DNA from: a virus
Length of the DNA: 64,000 nucleotides
Virus record (IMG/VR): IMGVR_UViG_3300021127_000004
Coordinates: 1-64,000 of that record
Reading direction: 5' to 3' (one strand)
A model generated the notes under the pieces. The model was not told the origin of the DNA, ran no database searches, and saw nothing but the letters and a program-made list of their open reading frames with translations. Within the stretch, counting starts at the first letter, position 1. The number at the start of each line of letters is the position of its first letter. The translations under genes and the position numbers were made by a program. Positions 5,980-23,365 of this stretch are shown one piece after another.

Positions 5980-6279
5980 TTAAAATTTAACACCTCCGCT
6001 TTGTATAAAATTTTCGTAAGATTGACTAGCTGATTTATTTATTTCTTCTTGTGCTTCACTAGCAGAATTATAACTATCATCTAATACTAATCCGCCTATT
6101 AGCCTAATAAAATACTTATCACCTACTTTTAGTATAGTATAAGTTTTAGGGTCACAATAGCTAGGTAAATGCGACAAATCTATTTTTTGCTCAACAATAG
6201 GACTTACTATATTTACTTGCTCTTTTTGTCTACAACCAATTGCAACTGATGCAAAAATTATAAAGTATGCTTTTTTCAT
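5980..6279 (-). CDS. small lipoprotein, 99 aa
   Basis: The N terminus MKKAYFIIFASVAIGC is a lipoprotein signal peptide with Cys16 as the probable lipidated residue. The mature part is polar (about 84 residues) and unrecognised. It should be anchored in the inner or outer membrane facing the periplasm or the surface. Phage-encoded lipoproteins expressed away from the lysis genes often block superinfection; that role is inference. Its start overlaps the end of the upstream 226-aa gene by 1 nt. Confidence 0.75.
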   Translation of the reverse strand: MKKAYFIIFASVAIGCRQKEQVNIVSPIVEQKIDLSHLPSYCDPKTYTILKVGDKYFIRLIGGLVLDDSYNSASEAQEEINKSASQSYENFIQSGGVKF

Positions 6280-11110: not shown

Positions 11111-11230
11111 ATGACATTTGCGCACGGATTTATGATAAATATTACATTGTGCTATTATAGGAAAGAATTATATGAAGCGGTAATTGTAGTTATTGATAAA
11201 ATGCTTATTAGGCTAAAACCCCAACTGTAA
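11111..11230 (+). CDS. tiny protein, 39 aa, end of + operon
   Basis: ATG at 11111, TAA at 11228. It overlaps the 3' end of the convergent endonuclease gene by 18 nt. Contains one moderately hydrophobic segment (YEAVIVVIDKMLI). Weak support. Confidence 0.35.
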   Translation: MTFAHGFMINITLCYYRKELYEAVIVVIDKMLIRLKPQL

Positions 11231-12016
11231 ACGAGGATAATACTGTAAGATAATAGCCTTTAGTTTGTCAATTGGTATAGCCGCATCATTTGGCTTTGTG
11301 CTTGTATTGGTGCTATCATTAACTGCCAACCACGAGGCTATTTTACCACCTTTTATTTCAATCTTAAAATAGTAGTCACCTATGAATATATTATGGTACT
11401 TCTTAGGATGCGAAAGGCTTATAAGAACCCCAGTGTAAACGTGAATACTATCTATTGTAGCAGCATCATCAAGAACGCCTTTTTCAGTAAACGCCCATTG
11501 ATGCTGATTTTCAAAACCATCTTGGAAGCTAGTATTTGAGCAGAAGTACATTGTTTCTTTCGCCGCTATTGGGTCGAATGCCATAGCCTCAAAAGGTACG
11601 ATATGACCGACATTTATCTTATGTGCAGGGTTTTCTTTGTTGTAAGAATTATAATCTGTCTGAGATACTATTTGAAAGCGTTTAGGCACCAAAGGGTCTT
11701 GCGTAAATGATGCACAAGTTTTTCTATCTACTTTAGCACTTGTTTTTAAAGCGTTATAGTGCGCCGTTGTTTGCCAATAGTCGTTCAAAATCCCTTGACA
11801 AAATACCGTATCAAATTGCACCGTATAGTACTTATGGTTAAGTTGTATTGTATGTTGCCCCCACGACCATAACGTTGATGCCACCAAGATGGTAAACAGA
11901 ACCAACGACTTAGGCGTATGCTTAAACACTTTGCCTATAATTGCTTTTAATTTTATTACCTTGTTTACTCGTACGGTTACTCTTTCTGATTCTCCGTCTT
12001 TAAATAGTTTTTTCAT
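11213..12016 (-). CDS. DNA/RNA non-specific endonuclease, membrane-anchored or secreted
   Basis: 267 aa. A hydrophobic segment at about 36-52 (SLVLFTILVASTLWSWGQ) follows a basic N terminus, so the nuclease domain should lie outside the cytoplasm. The catalytic region matches the Serratia/NucA (beta-beta-alpha metal) family: NVGHIVPFEAM at 135-145, with His138 in the place of the DRGH histidine, and SNTSFQ at 160-165 followed by QHQW, with Asn161 as the Mg2+ ligand. The usual DR before GH is replaced by NV. Such an enzyme degrades DNA and RNA; a periplasmic phage nuclease could destroy host or competing phage DNA or release nucleotides. It is isolated, with its own promoter-like sequence and a terminator upstream. 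Confidence 0.85.
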   Translation of the reverse strand: MKKLFKDGESERVTVRVNKVIKLKAIIGKVFKHTPKSLVLFTILVASTLWSWGQHTIQLNHKYYTVQFDTVFCQGILNDYWQTTAHYNALKTSAKVDRKTCASFTQDPLVPKRFQIVSQTDYNSYNKENPAHKINVGHIVPFEAMAFDPIAAKETMYFCSNTSFQDGFENQHQWAFTEKGVLDDAATIDSIHVYTGVLISLSHPKKYHNIFIGDYYFKIEIKGGKIASWLAVNDSTNTSTKPNDAAIPIDKLKAIILQYYPRLQLGF

Positions 12017-15242: not shown

Positions 15243-15542
15243 TTACTTTTTTAAATCTTCATACCTTAACCCATTGTGATAAGAACGGTAATTTATATCG
15301 TCAAAAAATCCATTCATATCATGTTCTACTCCATCCTCTTGCCATCTTAATATTAATCCCACTTCGCACTCATTATCTATATCGTAGCGTATATCGTCAA
15401 GATTGAAGAAATACTGGCAACAAAAAGAAGCAATCCCCCCAATATCATCTCCTACCCATCCATCGAAATCTAAAACTTGCTTTCTAATGAATTTATTTAA
15501 GTATGCTATTGCTACTGATTCGTAGCGTTGTTTAAGTGTCAT
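15243..15542 (-). CDS. hypothetical protein in lysis cassette, 99 aa
   Basis: Contains WVGDDIGGIASFCCQYFFNL, then DDIRYDID, a pattern I associate with small proteins found in many Bacteroidota phages and prophages without a known function. It overlaps the spanin gene by 4 nt and lies just before the lysozyme, so it is expressed with the lysis genes. Confidence 0.65.
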   Translation of the reverse strand: MTLKQRYESVAIAYLNKFIRKQVLDFDGWVGDDIGGIASFCCQYFFNLDDIRYDIDNECEVGLILRWQEDGVEHDMNGFFDDINYRSYHNGLRYEDLKK

Positions 15543-16063
15543 AACCTAGGTTTTACTATATACAATACCAACGCAATCACTATCGCTGCTAATAATAGCC
15601 AGAAATATAAGCACCATTCATTGCCTCTACTATGTTCTTTTGAAACTTGTAGTTGTTGAGTAGTGATTATTCCGTTTAATGTTGCTATCTGCTTGTTTAA
15701 ATTCTCTATTTGCGATTTGCAAAGGGATAGTTGTTGGTTGTCGATAATGGTGTCACGGTCGTGTATGTGCGTTGTATTTGTGTGGGTTATTGTAGTGGTA
15801 TCGTGTATGTAATTGCCTACTGTATCATGACAAGTAGCAATAGAGGTATCGTGCAAATAGGTTGTATCGCTCGAATGCGATATCACCTTATTATCGCAAG
15901 GGTGTAAGTTAGTGTAAACTTGCCCCACCGTATCAAATAGCGGTTCTTTAGTTAGCACTTTCTGTAACGCTGTACGGTCGGACATACAACCCGTTAAATG
16001 CCACATTATCAGTCCAAATAAAATGATAATTCCAATGTAACTATAACCTTTATCTGCTTTCAT
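15539..16063 (-). CDS. unimolecular spanin (lipoprotein with C-terminal membrane anchor)
   Basis: 174 aa. The N terminus (MKADKGYSYIGIIILFGLIM, then WHLTGC) is a lipoprotein signal with lipobox LTGC and Cys26. The C terminus has a strong transmembrane segment, about 149-170, followed by KPRL. Between them is a hydrophilic stretch with repeated His-Asp pairs (HDT, HDR) at 75-115 and a coiled coil at about 118-140. This is the design of a one-piece spanin: lipid anchor in the outer membrane, helix in the inner membrane, fusing both at lysis. Its position beside endolysin and holin candidates supports this. Sequence similarity alone would not prove it. Confidence 0.8.
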   Translation of the reverse strand: MKADKGYSYIGIIILFGLIMWHLTGCMSDRTALQKVLTKEPLFDTVGQVYTNLHPCDNKVISHSSDTTYLHDTSIATCHDTVGNYIHDTTTITHTNTTHIHDRDTIIDNQQLSLCKSQIENLNKQIATLNGIITTQQLQVSKEHSRGNEWCLYFWLLLAAIVIALVLYIVKPRL

Positions 16064-16185: not shown

Positions 16186-16368
16186 TTACTGTGGCGTAGT
16201 GCCTCCTGTTACGTTACCGTCTTTAGCTGCAATCAAACCTGCTGCTACTAAAATAGTAGTTATAGCTGTTGCTACATCTGTTGTCACATATTGGGGATAT
16301 AAAGTATGTGCCAACGTAGGCAATACTGCTAAAATCCCTGCTAATGTTGTCTTCCACGATTTAATCAT
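16186..16368 (-). CDS. holin candidate, 60 aa, two membrane segments
   Basis: Begins MIKSWKTTLAGILAVLPTLA. Hydrophobic segments at about 8-25 and 30-47 are separated by a short polar turn, with a charged C terminus. Size, topology and position between the spanin gene and other small membrane genes fit a small holin that lets the endolysin reach the wall. It overlaps the 28-aa gene upstream by 4 nt. Confidence 0.6.
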   Translation of the reverse strand: MIKSWKTTLAGILAVLPTLAHTLYPQYVTTDVATAITTILVAAGLIAAKDGNVTGGTTPQ

Positions 16369-16451
16369 TTCTTCTGTTTTAAATTATTATCAAATATTTT
16401 ATAACCTATATACATAGACAAAACTACATAAATAAGTTTAATTATCCACAT
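16365..16451 (-). CDS. tiny membrane protein between holin candidates, 28 aa
   Basis: ATG at 16451 overlaps the stop of the upstream 63-aa gene (TAATG) and the TGA at 16367-16365 overlaps the next ATG (ATGA). The peptide (MWIIKLIYVVLSMYIGYKIF and eight more) is a single membrane helix with a Lys-rich tail. The coupling at both ends is strong support despite the size. Confidence 0.6.
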   Translation of the reverse strand: MWIIKLIYVVLSMYIGYKIFDNNLKQKK

Positions 16452-16642
16452 TATTTTTTACTAGCGTCTTTACGGATAGCTTGGTAGTAGTAAATTATGG
16501 CAAAAACGGATACAACACACCCTAATACAAATGAGATAATTTTCATAGTCCAATCGGCTACATTTGCCGATACTGCAAAAAAACCTAATCCCCCTATTAG
16601 TGTTGCAAATCCGTCTGCTGTCTGTTTAATGTGGTGTAACAT
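16451..16642 (-). CDS. second holin candidate, 63 aa, two membrane segments
   Basis: Begins MLHHIKQTADGFATLIGGLG. Hydrophobic segments at about 14-28 and 33-55 end in IRKDASKK. It may be the holin, or the holin/antiholin partner of the 60-aa protein; the sequence does not decide which. Confidence 0.6.
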   Translation of the reverse strand: MLHHIKQTADGFATLIGGLGFFAVSANVADWTMKIISFVLGCVVSVFAIIYYYQAIRKDASKK

Positions 16643-16659: not shown

Positions 16660-17016
16660 TTATTTGAATGTTAATTTTAAAAACGCCGCAACGAATTGTA
16701 AAAGCATCAACGCCGAACCATCCCAAGCCGTGTATTGTGCTGATGTCAAAGTATACTGATTTGATTTAACCCTCCTGCCATCATTAGCTATTAAAACATA
16801 GCTAACAGTTACTAAGGTGTCATTTTCACTTGAATAAGACTGATTTGAGCCAGTTATCCCAATAGCTGACAAGGTGTCTTTCTGTTCGGGGAAACCTTGC
16901 CTAAAATAGACTTCGTTTATTCTTGCGGCTGTGCAGCCTGTAATAGTCGTGTCTATTGTTTGAGCCATAACACTTAACGACCCTAATACTAATAATCCTA
17001 ATAATAACTTCTTCAT
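16660..17016 (-). CDS. small secreted protein, 118 aa
   Basis: N-terminal signal peptide MKKLLLGLLVLGSLSVMAQ with cleavage before or at Gln, as often in Bacteroidota. The mature part (about 99 aa) includes INEVYFRQGFPEQKDTLSAI, then beta-rich segments. Gene order puts it just downstream of the LamG-like fibre gene, so it may be a fibre accessory or chaperone. Function not recognised. Confidence 0.6.
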   Translation of the reverse strand: MKKLLLGLLVLGSLSVMAQTIDTTITGCTAARINEVYFRQGFPEQKDTLSAIGITGSNQSYSSENDTLVTVSYVLIANDGRRVKSNQYTLTSAQYTAWDGSALMLLQFVAAFLKLTFK

Positions 17017-17027
17017 AATTGATTGAT

Positions 17028-17789
17028 TTATAATCCGTATCTACTTTTTAATGCGTTAAAATTTTGAGCGACTTCTGTTGATGTTAATGCCCTATTATAT
17101 AATTGGCAAACTGATATAAAACCATTATATCCTTGCGTAAGATCTCCCTTATCAGATGCTATTCTTGCATCAAGTCCGCTATTGGTTAGCGTGCTATTTG
17201 TTATAGTACCTGTTGCTTTTGAAACCCCATTAATATATACAGTAATAGCATTGGCGTTATTAGTTACACATATATTAGTCCAATTACTATTTAATATTGA
17301 AACACTTGTTTTTATTTGCGTTAAATTACCGGCATCATTACGTTGCACGAACCCTACTGTAAAACCATCAAAATTACTACCATTGTCTATTTTAAATATA
17401 TCATTGCCGCTAGATGCCCTTTCACAATACATTGCACCACCCGAAGAAGCGGAATTTACATTTACCCATAAACAAACTGTTGAACTAGATAATGCGCTAA
17501 TAATCTGTTTACCAAAAGAGGCATATTGATTTCCATTAAAAGTAAAGTAACCATTTTTTGAAGTATTAAATGTAGGGCTTGAAACTAAAGTAGTATTATT
17601 GCTCATTCCACTTATGTCATACCATAAACTCCCAATACCATTATAAGAATTTGAATTTTGAGCGGTAATGTTTGCTATCAATCCATTTGTTACAATTGGT
17701 GGGTATTGCCCGATTGCTCCTAAAAAGAATCGCATAGGCTGTGCGTTTGCAACGCCAATGAATAATAATAAAATAACTAAATATCTCAT
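17028..17789 (-). CDS. secreted LamG/concanavalin-like domain protein, probable fibre or receptor-binding protein
   Basis: 253 aa. Signal peptide MRYLVILLLFIGVANAQ. From about residue 60 to the end a LamG (concanavalin-like jelly roll) domain is recognisable: WYDISGMSNN, GYFTFNGNQYASFG, VCLWVNV, ITVYINGVSKATGTI, then VCQLYNRALTSTEVAQNFNA, which is the usual end of these domains. Such domains bind sugars. It lies one base from the large fibre-like gene at 17790 and may be its tip or attached lectin. The signal peptide is odd for a virion protein. The only GATC site I found in the window lies in this gene. Confidence 0.8.
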   Translation of the reverse strand: MRYLVILLLFIGVANAQPMRFFLGAIGQYPPIVTNGLIANITAQNSNSYNGIGSLWYDISGMSNNTTLVSSPTFNTSKNGYFTFNGNQYASFGKQIISALSSSTVCLWVNVNSASSGGAMYCERASSGNDIFKIDNGSNFDGFTVGFVQRNDAGNLTQIKTSVSILNSNWTNICVTNNANAITVYINGVSKATGTITNSTLTNSGLDARIASDKGDLTQGYNGFISVCQLYNRALTSTEVAQNFNALKSRYGL

Positions 17790-20246
17790 TTATTTACAAT
17801 TTAATAACCAAACAGACGTAAATTTCGTGCCATCATAAAATATACATATTTCATCCCTCGAACTTGCTGTTGTAGTAAGTGAGGGTATTACTCCTGCTGG
17901 CGAAATAAAGTTAGTATAAGTGGTGATTGTACGACTTCCTGTGGCATCTTGATAAACATCTAAATGATAAGTTCGCCCTGCTACCGCATTGGATATTGTT
18001 AGCGTTCTGCCTGTGCCTGCAAGTGTTACCTGTGCATTGCATCCGTTACGAGCATCCCAAGTAATAGTTGCCCCGTCTGTAAGGGTAATGATGGGGCTGA
18101 AAGTTTGTGTTACTGTTGCTACTGATGCGCTATCTACTTTTAAAGGGCTGCCACTCGTTCCAATTCCTGTCAATCCAAAGCCTGTTGTAATATTAGCCAC
18201 TATTTTAGTCGTATCCAAATTATATGCACCTGTGCTTGAATTGTAGGTAAAGATTGAACCCGTAGAAACGTTGCGAGTTGCAGATAGGCTACTTCCTGCT
18301 AAATAGTCGTTTGATGCACCAGCCGTTGCCGCGCTAACATTACCACTACCGTCCGCCTTTAATATCCCCGTTACACTACCTGCACCGCCTTTAGTACTGC
18401 CTATTACTGACCCGTTCCATGTAGCGTTGGTTATACTTGCCGCCCCTAGATTAAAAGTGTTTGTACTCCAACTTACCGCCGAAGGTGCGCTAAAATGATA
18501 ATCCCATGTACCCGCTGAACTGCCATTGCTTACCAATACAACATAGGCATAACCGCCCGAAGGGATGGATAAAACAGTTGTTCCAGAGTTATTGTTTACG
18601 GTTACTGCTCCACTAGACTGATTGTTATTGAAACTAAAAGTACACCCATTGGGCAAAGTAGTTGCATCAGGTAACTGCACAACCTGCCCACCTGACCCTG
18701 TTATGTAATAGTTGGGGGTAGATAAAACGGTTAAAGTTATCTGTGTGCCGCTTGCCGCTACGTTACTAAAACCGCTATAAAACGTATTCGCCGCTACATT
18801 ACCACACGCTGTATCTACTGTTACACCGTTGGTATATCCCACATGGTTTGTGCCATTCCAATAAGTTAGGGGTACTTTCGAAGATGTGATAGTTGGGGAG
18901 TTGCCTGTGATGCTACCTGTGCCTTTGTTAGCGTTGAAGTAAGTAGGGGTAATGTATAAACTACTATCCTTAGCCATTAGTACCTGCCTAAAATATTGCC
19001 CCGAACCTATTTGAGCAAATAAACTACCATTATGAGTGCCTATCAAATTATAAGCAACGTTTCTGTTGGTGTCGGGCAATGATAAGTAATTAATAGGATA
19101 TATCGCACCTCCTGTTATGGCTGCGCTACTCGATGCGGTTACGTCACCTGCAAAATCAAAAGAAACGCCACTATTACTTAATGTGCCTGTTTTGCCGAAA
19201 GTCCAATAGTTAGTATTGTTATTCATTATTTTCAAGTCGTTATTATCCGTAGTACCCAATGTTGCAGTTGTGCCGAATGAGTTGCCGCCTTGTGAGAAAT
19301 AATTAGAAGCGTTTAAACTATCTTTAGGAACGTTACCGATTGCAACCAATAATGAACCGTTTGTATTATTAGCGGTTACTATACCTATTCTCATTGCAGG
19401 GTATAATGTAGAGGGGGTTGGTGATATTCCCCCGTTATCGCCTAGATAAACGTTTTGTCCTGCATTGTATATGCTTAAATTAAGCCCCGTTACTATCCCC
19501 CCGTTATAAACTATTCTTCCATATCCATTATTAGGGATGGAATCTAAAGATATTGCAAAAGGGGGGTATCTAGGATTACTACCTTTTGCTATTGCTATAC
19601 TAGATGTTGAATCAAGGCAAACGGGTGTTAGTGGGGAAATCCCCGTCCCCGTATTTTTGGGACTAGCCCCTACTGTACTTAACCTACTTGAATTGCCAAG
19701 ACTATCTATGTAGTAGGGTTCTGTAAAGCCATTATTAGTCTTTGAATAAACCGATATTCCGACACTAGGATTAGAAGGGTCTGTACTTAGTGGGGTATAA
19801 TTATTTTTGGTTGTTTTACCTATGTAATAATATGTCGTACCGCTAGGTGTATCTATTGAAAGATTTGCAGTATAGCTTAATGAATGAACACCATTATAAA
19901 AAGGTATATCTTGAATTACCCCATTGCTGAATGTATTTCCACTTGCTAATGCACTATTGAATTGGGAAACTTTTTTAAAGTTGCTATTAGCTATCCCCCC
20001 GTTTAGAATCCAATAAGAACTATCTACCTTAGTATAAACCATAAAGGTTATAGTATCTCTATAATAAGTGGGGATTGCGTTTCTTGCAATCGTATCATAA
20101 ACTACTTTTGTAGCCCCTTGAAGATATGTGCCGTAATATCCTGCATAAGCCCCTGCGGGTTGAATCCCCCCACTAGAATTGATAAACACTTGCCCAAAAG
20201 AATTAAGGCTTATAAAAAGAGATAATATAATTAATAGTTTCTTCAT
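17790..20246 (-). CDS. large secreted tail-fibre-like protein, 818 aa
   Basis: Signal peptide MKKLLIILSLFISLNSFGQ. The body is rich in Ser, Thr, Gly and Asn, low in charge, and beta-rich as in trimeric fibres. About residues 605-645 contain NATWNGSVIGSTKGGAG and VTGILKADGSGNVSAATAG, a repeat type typical of phage tail fibres. The C-terminal part may be the receptor-binding tip. The protein is nearly abutted by its neighbours on both sides (1-nt gaps). Function as fibre is inferred from composition and repeat type. Confidence 0.75.
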   Translation of the reverse strand: MKKLLIILSLFISLNSFGQVFINSSGGIQPAGAYAGYYGTYLQGATKVVYDTIARNAIPTYYRDTITFMVYTKVDSSYWILNGGIANSNFKKVSQFNSALASGNTFSNGVIQDIPFYNGVHSLSYTANLSIDTPSGTTYYYIGKTTKNNYTPLSTDPSNPSVGISVYSKTNNGFTEPYYIDSLGNSSRLSTVGASPKNTGTGISPLTPVCLDSTSSIAIAKGSNPRYPPFAISLDSIPNNGYGRIVYNGGIVTGLNLSIYNAGQNVYLGDNGGISPTPSTLYPAMRIGIVTANNTNGSLLVAIGNVPKDSLNASNYFSQGGNSFGTTATLGTTDNNDLKIMNNNTNYWTFGKTGTLSNSGVSFDFAGDVTASSSAAITGGAIYPINYLSLPDTNRNVAYNLIGTHNGSLFAQIGSGQYFRQVLMAKDSSLYITPTYFNANKGTGSITGNSPTITSSKVPLTYWNGTNHVGYTNGVTVDTACGNVAANTFYSGFSNVAASGTQITLTVLSTPNYYITGSGGQVVQLPDATTLPNGCTFSFNNNQSSGAVTVNNNSGTTVLSIPSGGYAYVVLVSNGSSAGTWDYHFSAPSAVSWSTNTFNLGAASITNATWNGSVIGSTKGGAGSVTGILKADGSGNVSAATAGASNDYLAGSSLSATRNVSTGSIFTYNSSTGAYNLDTTKIVANITTGFGLTGIGTSGSPLKVDSASVATVTQTFSPIITLTDGATITWDARNGCNAQVTLAGTGRTLTISNAVAGRTYHLDVYQDATGSRTITTYTNFISPAGVIPSLTTTASSRDEICIFYDGTKFTSVWLLNCK

Positions 20247-21215
20247 TTATTGAAAAGTTACTGCTGTTGCTGAAAGATTACCAATTTGATTATTACTTAC
20301 TGTATAGTATCCATTATATGTTCCCCCACTTGCATTTGTAAAGGTAATTGAATTATTTAGACTAAATGCAGATGTAGATGGGAATCCATTTACGGTAACA
20401 CTTGTAACTGTACTCGTATTGACATAGAAAAGATACTTTGCGCTGCCTTGTTGTGGGATTGTGTACGAAAGTGAAGTTGCCCCCCCGCTATTATCTTGAT
20501 ATAAGGCTGCCAATATTTCTGCTTGGGTGGGGGTTGTTGTTGCCGAAAATCCCAAATACCTTTTGTTATAAAAGGAAAATATAGTCGTTGCCGTAGCCGT
20601 TTTTGAATCAGTAGTAGTGACTACATTGCTATATGTAGTATTAGTGTTTCTTGTTACTGAAACTCCTTGTGTGCCTGTTACTGTACTACCTGCACTTGGT
20701 TGTGTAAATGTTTGCCCTGTACCTGCTACTACTATTGTAGCAATGGGATTTGTTGCTCCCTGTGTTGATGTAGCCGATAATCTCCCCGCCCCCCAATTTA
20801 AAGTGTAAGACAATGCAGCCCCACTAGCAACGATTTCCTGTGAAAATCCCCCTGTCAAAGTAGCAGTAGGGTTTTGTGTTTGTATCTTAACATACCCCAA
20901 CAAGGTATCATTAAGTGCTGTATGGGTTACAAATAGGCTACTATCTACGGTTGATGAGTTTCGTTTCCATCCGAAACCATTCCAAAACCATTTTGCTGTA
21001 TCCACCCCTGCATTTGCAAAAATTATTTCTGTACCATAATAACGGGCTTTCATATTTGTATCCGTCCTTACTGCGGGGATATAGCCACTATCTGATTTTA
21101 AAAAAGCGTATTTTATCCAACTTGTAGAATTGGTTACGGGATTACCTTGTGGGAGTGATTGCGAAAATCCCCCTACCAAAAACAAACTTAATAATATAGT
21201 TAATAGTATCTTCAT
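20247..21215 (-). CDS. secreted fibre-like protein, 322 aa
   Basis: Signal peptide MKILLTILLSLFLVGGFSQ. The remainder is Thr/Ser/Asn-rich and probably beta-structured, with VAGTGQTFTQPSAGSTVTGT near the centre. The C terminus (NNSITFTNASGGTYNGYYTV) looks like an Ig-like strand pattern. Its place between two large fibre-like genes makes it a probable part of the same fibre. Confidence 0.65.
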   Translation of the reverse strand: MKILLTILLSLFLVGGFSQSLPQGNPVTNSTSWIKYAFLKSDSGYIPAVRTDTNMKARYYGTEIIFANAGVDTAKWFWNGFGWKRNSSTVDSSLFVTHTALNDTLLGYVKIQTQNPTATLTGGFSQEIVASGAALSYTLNWGAGRLSATSTQGATNPIATIVVAGTGQTFTQPSAGSTVTGTQGVSVTRNTNTTYSNVVTTTDSKTATATTIFSFYNKRYLGFSATTTPTQAEILAALYQDNSGGATSLSYTIPQQGSAKYLFYVNTSTVTSVTVNGFPSTSAFSLNNSITFTNASGGTYNGYYTVSNNQIGNLSATAVTFQ

Positions 21216-21253
21216 TTATTTAATTGTTATTTATTAAGGGTAAACGCGGATTT

Positions 21254-23365
21254 CTATTGATAAACACGTAAGTAAATATTTGAAAATGTCAATAACCCAT
21301 CCGTTAAAACACCGCTTGAATTATATGTATAAAAAGTGAAAATATTTTTATATATTATACCTGATTGCGTTGTAGAAAAAGTACCATTAGTTATTTTATT
21401 GTCGGAGAATGATATATCTGTATTATTCCCACAATATTGGAAGTGAATATTTGTTTTTGTAGATATAGTGCAAGTGTAAGTTCCTGTAGATATATAGTCA
21501 AAATGAACTGAATTAACACTAAATGTATCTATATCATCTACAAATACCTTTTGAATTGTAGGGGCTGTTGTTCCGCTTTGATATAACCTAGCTCTAAATT
21601 CATAATATCCTTTTGAGGGGATATTCGCTTGTACATAATTCTTTACTGCATTAACACTAGGATATAGTATATTGCTTGCGCTATCTGATGGATTTATTGA
21701 TACCGCTAAGTTATTTACGTCTTGGGGGATTAATCCTTGATTTTGCACTGAATATAACCATTCGCCGCTACCTACATATTGTAATCTAACTTGTATGCCC
21801 GAATCTACTGTAATATTATTTGTATAGCTTCCACTAGATGCTGTTGCGTAAAAATAAGTCCCTGTATTAGACCTTAAATTAAAATTGTTATTCAAACTAT
21901 AAGAACCTGTTATATTGTATATGTAATCTGTTTCACCTATTTTTGGGTTAGGATTAGTAAATAGTGAATACCCACTATTTGTAGGGTTTACAAAAGTATA
22001 TTTAGAAGTTGTAGTTATTGTTCCACTTAGGGTTATTACTGTGTCAGTATAAGAAACACTATTTGCTTTTACAAATCTAGTGATAGCTTGTACACTAGGG
22101 TACTTCGTAGTAGAAGCACTATCAGATGTTGCATTGTTAGATAAATTACTTAACGCTTGTGCATATCTGCCTACTGATTGAACTGTTGGGTATTTTGTTG
22201 TGCTGCTACTATCGCTTGCTACATTTGTTGATTTATTAGCAATATTTTCGGGTACATACCCTAAGCCAACATTAAGAATATCCCAATTAGTAGATGTTTG
22301 CCCGGGGCTATTAGTCAATGCCCTTACACTAGACCCTACTACAACCGATGTCCCGCCTAAAGTACCTGCTACTTTTATATACCATAAATCTCCCTTTTGT
22401 ATAGCCCCTGCTGTGCCACTACCCCCCGTTGAAGGGAAAACGTTGCCACTAGCATCGTAACTACCTCTGTCATTAAGAAGTCCTACTACTAGACCTGCGG
22501 CATAGGTTCTTGTGGCTTGTTGTGTAGGGTATAAAGTAGAACTATTTGCAGCCATAGTCCCATCGTTAGAAAGGTTTGATGTAACTTGATAGCCACTAAG
22601 GTTTGGGGCGTGGTTGGTTACATAAGACTTTACTGCGTTTTGTGTAGGTAGAGAATACAATGGGGAACTAGAAAGGGATGTATCATTTGAAAATGCGTTT
22701 ACACCATACCCCCCTAGATTAATAAAAGAACTAGCTTGTAAGGACAATGCTTCTATACTAGAAAAGTTATTATCTCCCGTAAACACATTGTTTTTAGCTA
22801 AATAAGGGATTCTTGTAGTGTCAATAGAACCACCTCCTCCACCTTGATGATTAGTTACATACGATTTTACTGCTTTTTGTGTGGGCAATATTGCATTTGA
22901 ATTACTTGTCATTGCGGTATCGGTAGATATTGATGATATTAATTGACCGCTAGTAAACCCCAAAAAACCATTTATTGTCAATGTATTATAATGCCCGTCT
23001 ATTGATAGGGTAGTTCCTGCATCATTATTATTAATATCTCCTATTGTAGTAATATCTCCATTTATTGATAACCCACTTGCATCGTTGTTGTTACTTACGT
23101 TTATATTAGGGAAAGTATTATTGCCTGTAAAATTATTATTCTTAGCTAAATAAGGTATTTTAGTACTATCAATAAGTTTTGAATTATTTATCTTGTTGTA
23201 GATAATGTTTTCAAACATCCTACCTACTCTTACGGCGGTGTTAGCCCCTGCCCTTGTTTCATTTTTTATTGTATCTGCTTGTGTAATTAATTGGGCATCT
23301 GTTAATTGGGATTTCCCCTCAAAGTAAACAAGCCCCAACAAAACTAATAAAATAACTTTCTTCAT
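21254..23365 (-). CDS. secreted repeat tail-fibre-like protein, 703 aa
   Basis: Signal peptide MKKVILLVLLGLVYFEGKSQ. Six copies of a fibre repeat with the core (L/K)YP(T/S)xxAVxxY are visible, at about residues 160-175, 240-250, 280-290, 390-405, 415-430 and 565-580: ILPTQKAVKSYVTNH, SLPTQNAVKSYVTNH, LYPTQQATRTYA, KYPTVQSVGRYA, KYPSVQAITRFV and LYPSVNAVKNYV. These repeats are typical of long phage fibres. The C-terminal about 120 residues lack the repeat and may be the tip. It is the first of the signal-peptide fibre series in transcription order. Confidence 0.78.
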   Translation of the reverse strand: MKKVILLVLLGLVYFEGKSQLTDAQLITQADTIKNETRAGANTAVRVGRMFENIIYNKINNSKLIDSTKIPYLAKNNNFTGNNTFPNINVSNNNDASGLSINGDITTIGDINNNDAGTTLSIDGHYNTLTINGFLGFTSGQLISSISTDTAMTSNSNAILPTQKAVKSYVTNHQGGGGGSIDTTRIPYLAKNNVFTGDNNFSSIEALSLQASSFINLGGYGVNAFSNDTSLSSSPLYSLPTQNAVKSYVTNHAPNLSGYQVTSNLSNDGTMAANSSTLYPTQQATRTYAAGLVVGLLNDRGSYDASGNVFPSTGGSGTAGAIQKGDLWYIKVAGTLGGTSVVVGSSVRALTNSPGQTSTNWDILNVGLGYVPENIANKSTNVASDSSSTTKYPTVQSVGRYAQALSNLSNNATSDSASTTKYPSVQAITRFVKANSVSYTDTVITLSGTITTTSKYTFVNPTNSGYSLFTNPNPKIGETDYIYNITGSYSLNNNFNLRSNTGTYFYATASSGSYTNNITVDSGIQVRLQYVGSGEWLYSVQNQGLIPQDVNNLAVSINPSDSASNILYPSVNAVKNYVQANIPSKGYYEFRARLYQSGTTAPTIQKVFVDDIDTFSVNSVHFDYISTGTYTCTISTKTNIHFQYCGNNTDISFSDNKITNGTFSTTQSGIIYKNIFTFYTYNSSGVLTDGLLTFSNIYLRVYQ

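Follow-up and report, generated by a model that had tools for sequence, protein, structure and literature searches.

Structural proteins with cleavable signal peptides are familiar from filamentous phages: the M13 coat proteins pIII and pVIII carry them, and these phages are assembled by membrane extrusion without lysis. The proteins described here share such signals but belong to a tailed, lysing phage, whose head and tail would be built in the cytoplasm. A Gln-type end of the signal peptide is the known Q-rule of Bacteroidetes (PMC5837995; also PMC10653852), and the predicted Q-value averages 71% across species of the phylum (PMC5837995). Known Q-rule Sec/SPI substrates have the n/h/c signal architecture and the Gln at +1 seen in our fibre-block proteins, but they are host envelope proteins.

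The closest published observation concerns phages of Porphyromonas gingivalis, which also encode proteins with Q-rule signals; these five genes were reported as of unknown function and read as possible modifiers of the outer membrane (PMC10367356; repeated in PMC10653852). Our locus differs in that the signals fall in a consecutive fibre block, in the virion evidence available from related phages, and in a glycosylation footprint. Among openly licensed papers, none was found that links phage Q-rule proteins to tail fibres, virions or O-glycosylation.

The sites at which Bacteroidota O-glycosylate their exported proteins have the form D-[S/T]-[A/I/L/V/M/T], and modification is limited to non-cytoplasmic proteins; at measured sites, L, I, V, T, A and S account for ~90% of third positions (PMC12871550). 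The proteins analyzed here resemble these general O-glycoproteins in being exported and enriched in D[ST][A/I/L/V/M/T], and differ in that phage fibres are unreported among them and that the sequons here are read from sequence only.

Five consecutive fibre-block genes with Q-rule signals

The window, the whole stretch of DNA analyzed here, spans 64,000 nt (positions 1-64000 of a 78,699-bp viral record). The virus encodes a portal protein (phrog_6547) and GroEL; neither the window portal nor the first fibre gave a tblastn match among isolated phages. The window terminase shares 20-25% identity with the terminases of Cellulophaga phage phi46:3 (Pachyviridae) and Flavobacterium Elemovirus, a distant relationship; from these relatives, together with the Q-rule signals themselves, we infer a Bacteroidota host.

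The original prediction placed Sec signals with a Gln-type end on five genes of the fibre region; this is true and was, if anything, understated. The five ORFs lie at the coordinates given there and are on the minus strand. All five proteins begin with a basic n-region and an uncharged hydrophobic core, followed by a small −3/−1 pair and Gln at +1. The 703-aa fibre protein (21254..23365, minus strand) has a predicted signal peptide at residues 1-19 (23309-23365; MKKVILLVLLGLVYFEGKS↓Q, the arrow marking predicted cleavage), with Q20 at +1, and contains 7 O-glycosylation sequons. A 322-aa fibre-region protein (20247..21215, minus strand; 2 sequons) has its signal at residues 1-18 (21162-21215; MKILLTILLSLFLVGGFS↓Q), as does the 818-aa fibre protein (17790..20246, minus strand; 9 sequons; signal 20193-20246, MKKLLIILSLFISLNSFG↓Q). 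They are followed by a 253-aa LamG/concanavalin-like lectin protein (17028..17789, minus strand; signal at residues 1-16, 17742-17789, MRYLVILLLFIGVANA↓Q; 0 sequons), which matches PF13385 (Pfam, E = 4e-20) and the virion structural protein family phrog_8510 (PHROGs, E = 2e-22), and by a small accessory protein of 118 aa (16660..17016, minus strand; signal at residues 1-18, 16963-17016, MKKLLLGLLVLGSLSVMA↓Q; 3 sequons), whose five homologues all have Q-rule signals. Three of the five proteins matched no family in PHROGs, Pfam or NCBIfam, and the AlphaFold2 models obtained for two of them, of 118 aa and 322 aa (mean pLDDT, 51 and 33), were too poor for a fold search. We regard the five as probably comprising the adsorption fibres of a tailed Bacteroidota phage, together with a lectin and a small accessory protein.

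Signals were called with a home-made n/h/c-region rule. Among 27 fibre-block proteins it found Q+1 signals in 26, and among 83 virion or packaging proteins without signals it called none. Since its false-positive rate for Q+1 calls was 36 in 22,000 shuffled N termini and 0 in 640 internal Met positions, five consecutive Q+1 signals are far beyond chance. None of the upstream virion proteins of the window has such a signal. Elsewhere in the record, the exported proteins seen were limited to two lipoproteins (5980-6279 and 15539-16063) and a nuclease.

No T9SS C-terminal sorting domain was matched in any of the five proteins (Pfam, NCBIfam), so their predicted end station is the periplasm; a lipobox with Cys at +1, the mark of lipoprotein superinfection-exclusion factors of the T5 Llp type, is likewise absent from all five, each having Gln there. 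An early proposal that they act as surface decoys on infected cells is disfavoured accordingly, as it leaves them no route across the outer membrane. Disulfide bonds were considered as a reason for export and rejected, as the first protein set showed no excess of cysteine (4.2 versus 4.9 per 1000 aa). In the window clade, cysteines number 5.4 per 1000 aa, against 1.7 in signal-less fibres homologous to its proteins.

Fibre blocks with export signals in Cellulophaga phages

Isolated Cellulophaga phages of three families (Pachyviridae, Assiduviridae and Duneviridae) resemble the window in having four or five consecutive fibre genes with signals. Five consecutive fibre-block genes of phi46:3, gp079-gp083, all have Q-rule signals, which also occur in the fibre blocks of phi19:3, of phi19:1 and phi10:1 (Assiduviridae), and of Ingeline_1 (Duneviridae); the one exception, in phi19:1 and phi19:3, has a residue other than Gln at +1. 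These blocks differ from that of the window in that the fibres tested show no detectable sequence relationship and that the O-glycosylation sequon is avoided in them, whereas it is enriched in the window clade. Literature searches of openly licensed papers found the signals of Cellulophaga fibre blocks nowhere mentioned, and the term "signal peptide" is absent from a paper on North Sea flavobacterial phages.

Every one of phi19:1 gp101-gp104 and phi10:1 gp091-gp094 carries the GenBank note "annotation based on experimental MS/MS proteomics analysis". All eight proteins have a signal, seven with Q+1 and phi19:1 gp104 most likely cleaved at SFG↓K; none of the remaining MS/MS proteins read in these two phages has one. 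As far as these GenBank notes go, fibre proteins with signals are therefore in virions. For the window this support is an analogy of position and signal, because a homology search with its first and third fibres against the MS/MS-noted proteins found none.

The same notes bear on the idea that the window proteins are periplasmic or released non-virion proteins, that is, free lectins, depolymerases or receptor blockers that would serve superinfection exclusion or receptor clearing before release and may copurify with virions. Their signals and lectin or carbohydrate-binding domains would suit such a role, and for the P. gingivalis phage Q-rule proteins a role in modifying the outer membrane has been suggested (PMC10367356). 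Yet all four signal-bearing block genes are structural by MS/MS annotation in two phages, the domains are common to signal-less phage fibres, and the surface is unreachable without a T9SS domain or lipobox; we consider this reading unlikely.

Signals are not common to all Bacteroidota phages, an idea that we rejected. Q-rule signals are absent from the fibre genes of crAss001, phi14:2, phi38:1, phi17:2, phi12:1, Elemovirus, B124-14, P12002L, FCL-2 and Panino, ten cases that comprise genomes or genome parts (for phi14:2, the check covered 17 MS/MS proteins). The predicted fibre export signal is thus a lineage-specific trait, and we count it against our preferred explanation, fibre export with late attachment, that many Bacteroidota phages do without it.

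Two further features of these phages were observed. phi19:1 (Assiduviridae, L015:12001-15250) and phi19:3 (Pachyviridae, L014:12001-15250) are unrelated and share a host strain, and their blocks contain fibre genes of matching length; one such gene, compared over its whole length, is 98% identical, which points to an exported-fibre cassette having passed from one family to another. Q-rule genes with no assigned role also lie beyond the fibre block, in phi19:3 (L014:2633-2992 and L014:3405-3713) and Ingeline_1 (L023:27509-28141).

The signal as an exchangeable module

IMG/VR relatives of the 818-aa fibre fall into two classes. In the window's own clade (L024-L037), whose GC content is 34-40% at the eight loci measured, eight different N termini precede one fibre domain, and all eight have Q-rule signals. 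The distant class (L038-L086; GC, 40-48%) has the same domain (18300..18935, minus strand, in the window; ~46-64% identity in alignment), preceded by cytoplasmic N termini such as MADTKISALTG and MSNSIANTVTT. A first scan of genome contigs gave no relative, and a second gave one further signal-less relative (L087), in a Rhodospirillales bin. The concern that homologues might lack the N-terminal segment is borne out for these distant homologues of one domain but not within the clade, whose complete relatives all have a signal.

The gene for the 322-aa protein shows how signals are exchanged. Between the window and L025, its DNA is identical from the cleavage site onward over the aligned stretch, and the signals differ; between the window and L007, the signals are identical, and the sequences after them differ. 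Because the window shares a mature part with one relative and a signal with the other, the signal is an exchangeable module, and the comparison shows that the two parts recombined independently of each other, with the junction at the predicted cleavage site. In phi46:3, two adjoining fibre genes (L005:10514-13691; annotated as pectate lyase and tail fibre) start with the same 21 residues, signal included, and then diverge, as if a signal module had been reused.

These data can be set against the view, raised among the original options as membrane anchoring, that an uncleaved hydrophobic N terminus anchors the fibre in the tail or membrane. Across Cellulophaga phage families the first ~100 residues, signal included, are ~91% identical, as an attachment module would be. 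Against an anchor stand the Q+1 with small −3/−1 residues throughout, the free divergence of the signals of one domain, which nevertheless keep the Q-rule, and the separate recombination of signal and mature part. A signal-less phi12:1 fibre also has the same N-terminal segment: from residue 3 its sequence (LIERSEQIKNETTQGANTAERVG) aligns with LITQADTIKNETRAGANTAVRVG of the window 703-aa fibre, which begins six residues past the predicted new N terminus, although this match is short (E = 2e-7 for the single pair, 0.3 in a collection search). With a cleavage site, a signal that is swapped as a module, and a signal-less fibre starting near the window's mature start, we think anchoring improbable.

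A probable O-glycosylation footprint in signal-bearing fibres

We counted sequons with the published motif, D[ST][AILVMT], and took the expectation from composition; for the host side of the comparison, where the contig scans had given one signal-less relative, we used the literature. The five mature window proteins contain 21 sequons versus 8.0 expected, and 22 distinct signal-bearing proteins of the clade contain 96 versus 32.3 (3-fold), so that export signals and enriched sequons occur together in both sets. When all 20 residues were scanned at the first position, a threefold excess was found with Asp only. The third position is enriched for A (22/5.9, observed/expected), I (22/5.6), L (18/5.1), T (30/10.5) and S (21/9.7) and not for D, Y, K, G, W or E, a profile that matches the measured sequon.

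The controls showed no excess: virion and packaging proteins without signals, encoded by the same genome, gave 29/30.9, fibres that have the homologous domain but no signal gave 31/43.8, and cytoplasmic non-virion proteins gave 6/6.4. Spanin-like lipoproteins, whose expected location is the periplasm, were enriched like the fibres (23/5.0), the five counted being homologous to one another. Fibre composition or repeats were rejected as the source of the excess, since neither signal-less fibres with the same domain nor other first-position residues show it.

Cellulophaga phages gave the opposite picture, with 20/52 in exported fibres and 130/153 in signal-less virion proteins. With a six-residue set (AILTVS) picked after both the data and the paper had been seen, phi46:3, phi19:1 and phi10:1 each have ratios of 0.33-0.38 for the sequon and 0.77-1.08 for other D[ST]x. 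For this set, these exported fibres differ from signal-less fibres at Fisher p = 0.006 and the five window proteins alone give p ~3e-5, pooled-set p values being too optimistic because homologous proteins share sites and the counts are not independent. Enrichment in one clade and avoidance in the other are what exposure to O-glycosylation enzymes could select for, and the window-clade fibres are probably O-glycosylated in the periplasm.

The footprint also weighs on a dual use of the proteins, in which export would be partial, one pool being left in the cytoplasm for normal assembly and the other, once exported, blocking receptors or removing glycans from the surface. This would accommodate virion presence and export signals together, but the strength of the Q-rule signals and the sequon footprint point to an exported main pool, and Cellulophaga fibres even avoid sequons; we rate it slightly lower than the free, non-virion proteins considered above.

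Lysis genes and the phage origin of the fibres

The fibre block lies between tail and lysis genes and directly precedes holin-like, spanin-like and lysozyme genes. Two small membrane proteins (16451-16642 and 16186-16368, within 16186..16642, minus strand) are holin-like by position and hydrophobicity only, and neither has a family match. Next is the spanin-like lipoprotein (15539..16063, minus strand), with a lipobox (LTG↓C) and a C-terminal hydrophobic segment, which served as a sequon-rich internal positive control. It and its homologues in L025, L035, L036 and L037 have a His/Asp-Thr-rich middle (HDT repeats) and six sequons each in all five (A/I/L/T/V/S set). The endolysin, a phage lysozyme (14774..15238, minus strand; PF00959, E = 2e-33), lacks a signal peptide, and a holin is therefore needed.

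Near these genes is a DNA/RNA non-specific endonuclease (11213-12016, minus strand; PF01223) that looks like an exported protein, with 3 sequons versus 0.7 expected. Its relatives (L025:16510-17214 and L032:14693-15397) start with a clean Q-rule signal, MKQTLLFFSWLVIVVNSWG↓Q, and the window ORF has a longer N terminus ahead of STLWSWG↓Q.

The fibre block recurs with such lysis genes behind different tail modules, and similar cassettes were seen behind clearly different tail gene sets in L032 and L036, in L035 and L037, and in the window. This suggests that an exported-fibre and lysis cassette has been transferred between phages of apparently different morphology.

A phage origin of the fibres is indicated by the shared domain, matches to virion-protein PHROGs and C-terminal matches to other phages, and the window block contains phage fibre domains. 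Capture of host secreted proteins, with signals left over, had also been proposed; it finds some echo in a sequon enrichment that resembles host non-cytoplasmic proteins (PMC12871550) and in the LamG domain, widespread outside phages. For at least part of the set it is contradicted, since the shared domains are fibre domains of unrelated phages, the relative L037 contains a K1-lyase_C phage tailspike domain, and the block recurs beside lysis genes behind different tail modules; we give this origin very little weight. Carbohydrate-active hints among exported fibres are a CBM_4_9 match just below the cutoff (phi46:3, L005:12753-13691) and an arabinofuranosidase catalytic-domain match (L025:10237-11193).

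A model for fibre export and late attachment

We propose that the fibre genes are expressed late with cleavable Sec/SPI signals and that their products would be exported by Sec to the periplasm before lysis. Cleavage by SPI would expose an N-terminal Gln, which host glutaminyl cyclase may convert to pyroglutamate, and the fibres would fold in the periplasm, where in the window clade host O-glycosylation at D[ST][A/I/L/T/S/V] sites is probable. Fibres would then attach to head-tail particles assembled in the cytoplasm, either as the holin opens the inner membrane or shortly after lysis. Finished T4 fibres and P22 tailspikes are known to attach to finished particles in vitro, which makes late attachment chemically plausible.

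Of the options first offered for signals on virion proteins, attachment of the fibres outside the cytoplasm is the best supported, through the equivalent signal-bearing proteins in virions by MS/MS annotation and the sequon footprint. The model builds on the signals, their conservation and modularity, the MS/MS notes for equivalent proteins and the footprint; from these we infer that the signals are cleaved, that pyroglutamate and glycans are formed, and when and where the fibres attach. As a whole, exported, cleaved, pyroglutamylated and, in the clade, probably O-glycosylated fibres that join tails late has in our estimate a probability of about 0.7.

Implications

More tentatively, at odds that we put somewhat short of even, there may be a class of Bacteroidota tailed phages whose heads and tails are built in the cytoplasm and whose fibres mature in the periplasm, pyroglutamylated and in some clades O-glycosylated by the host. 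Infectious particles would be complete only at lysis, with host sugars on their fibres, and the exported-fibre and lysis cassette would move among tail types.

Our findings offer a likely identity, tail fibres, for phage Q-rule proteins published as secreted and of unknown function, and they imply an assembly step of tailed phages outside the cytoplasm. They also predict host-glycosylated virions in a phylum that makes up a large share of the communities of the gut and of aquatic habitats. Host glycans on fibres would bear on receptor recognition and on the production of such fibres for study; fibres made in Escherichia coli without the signal may be immature.
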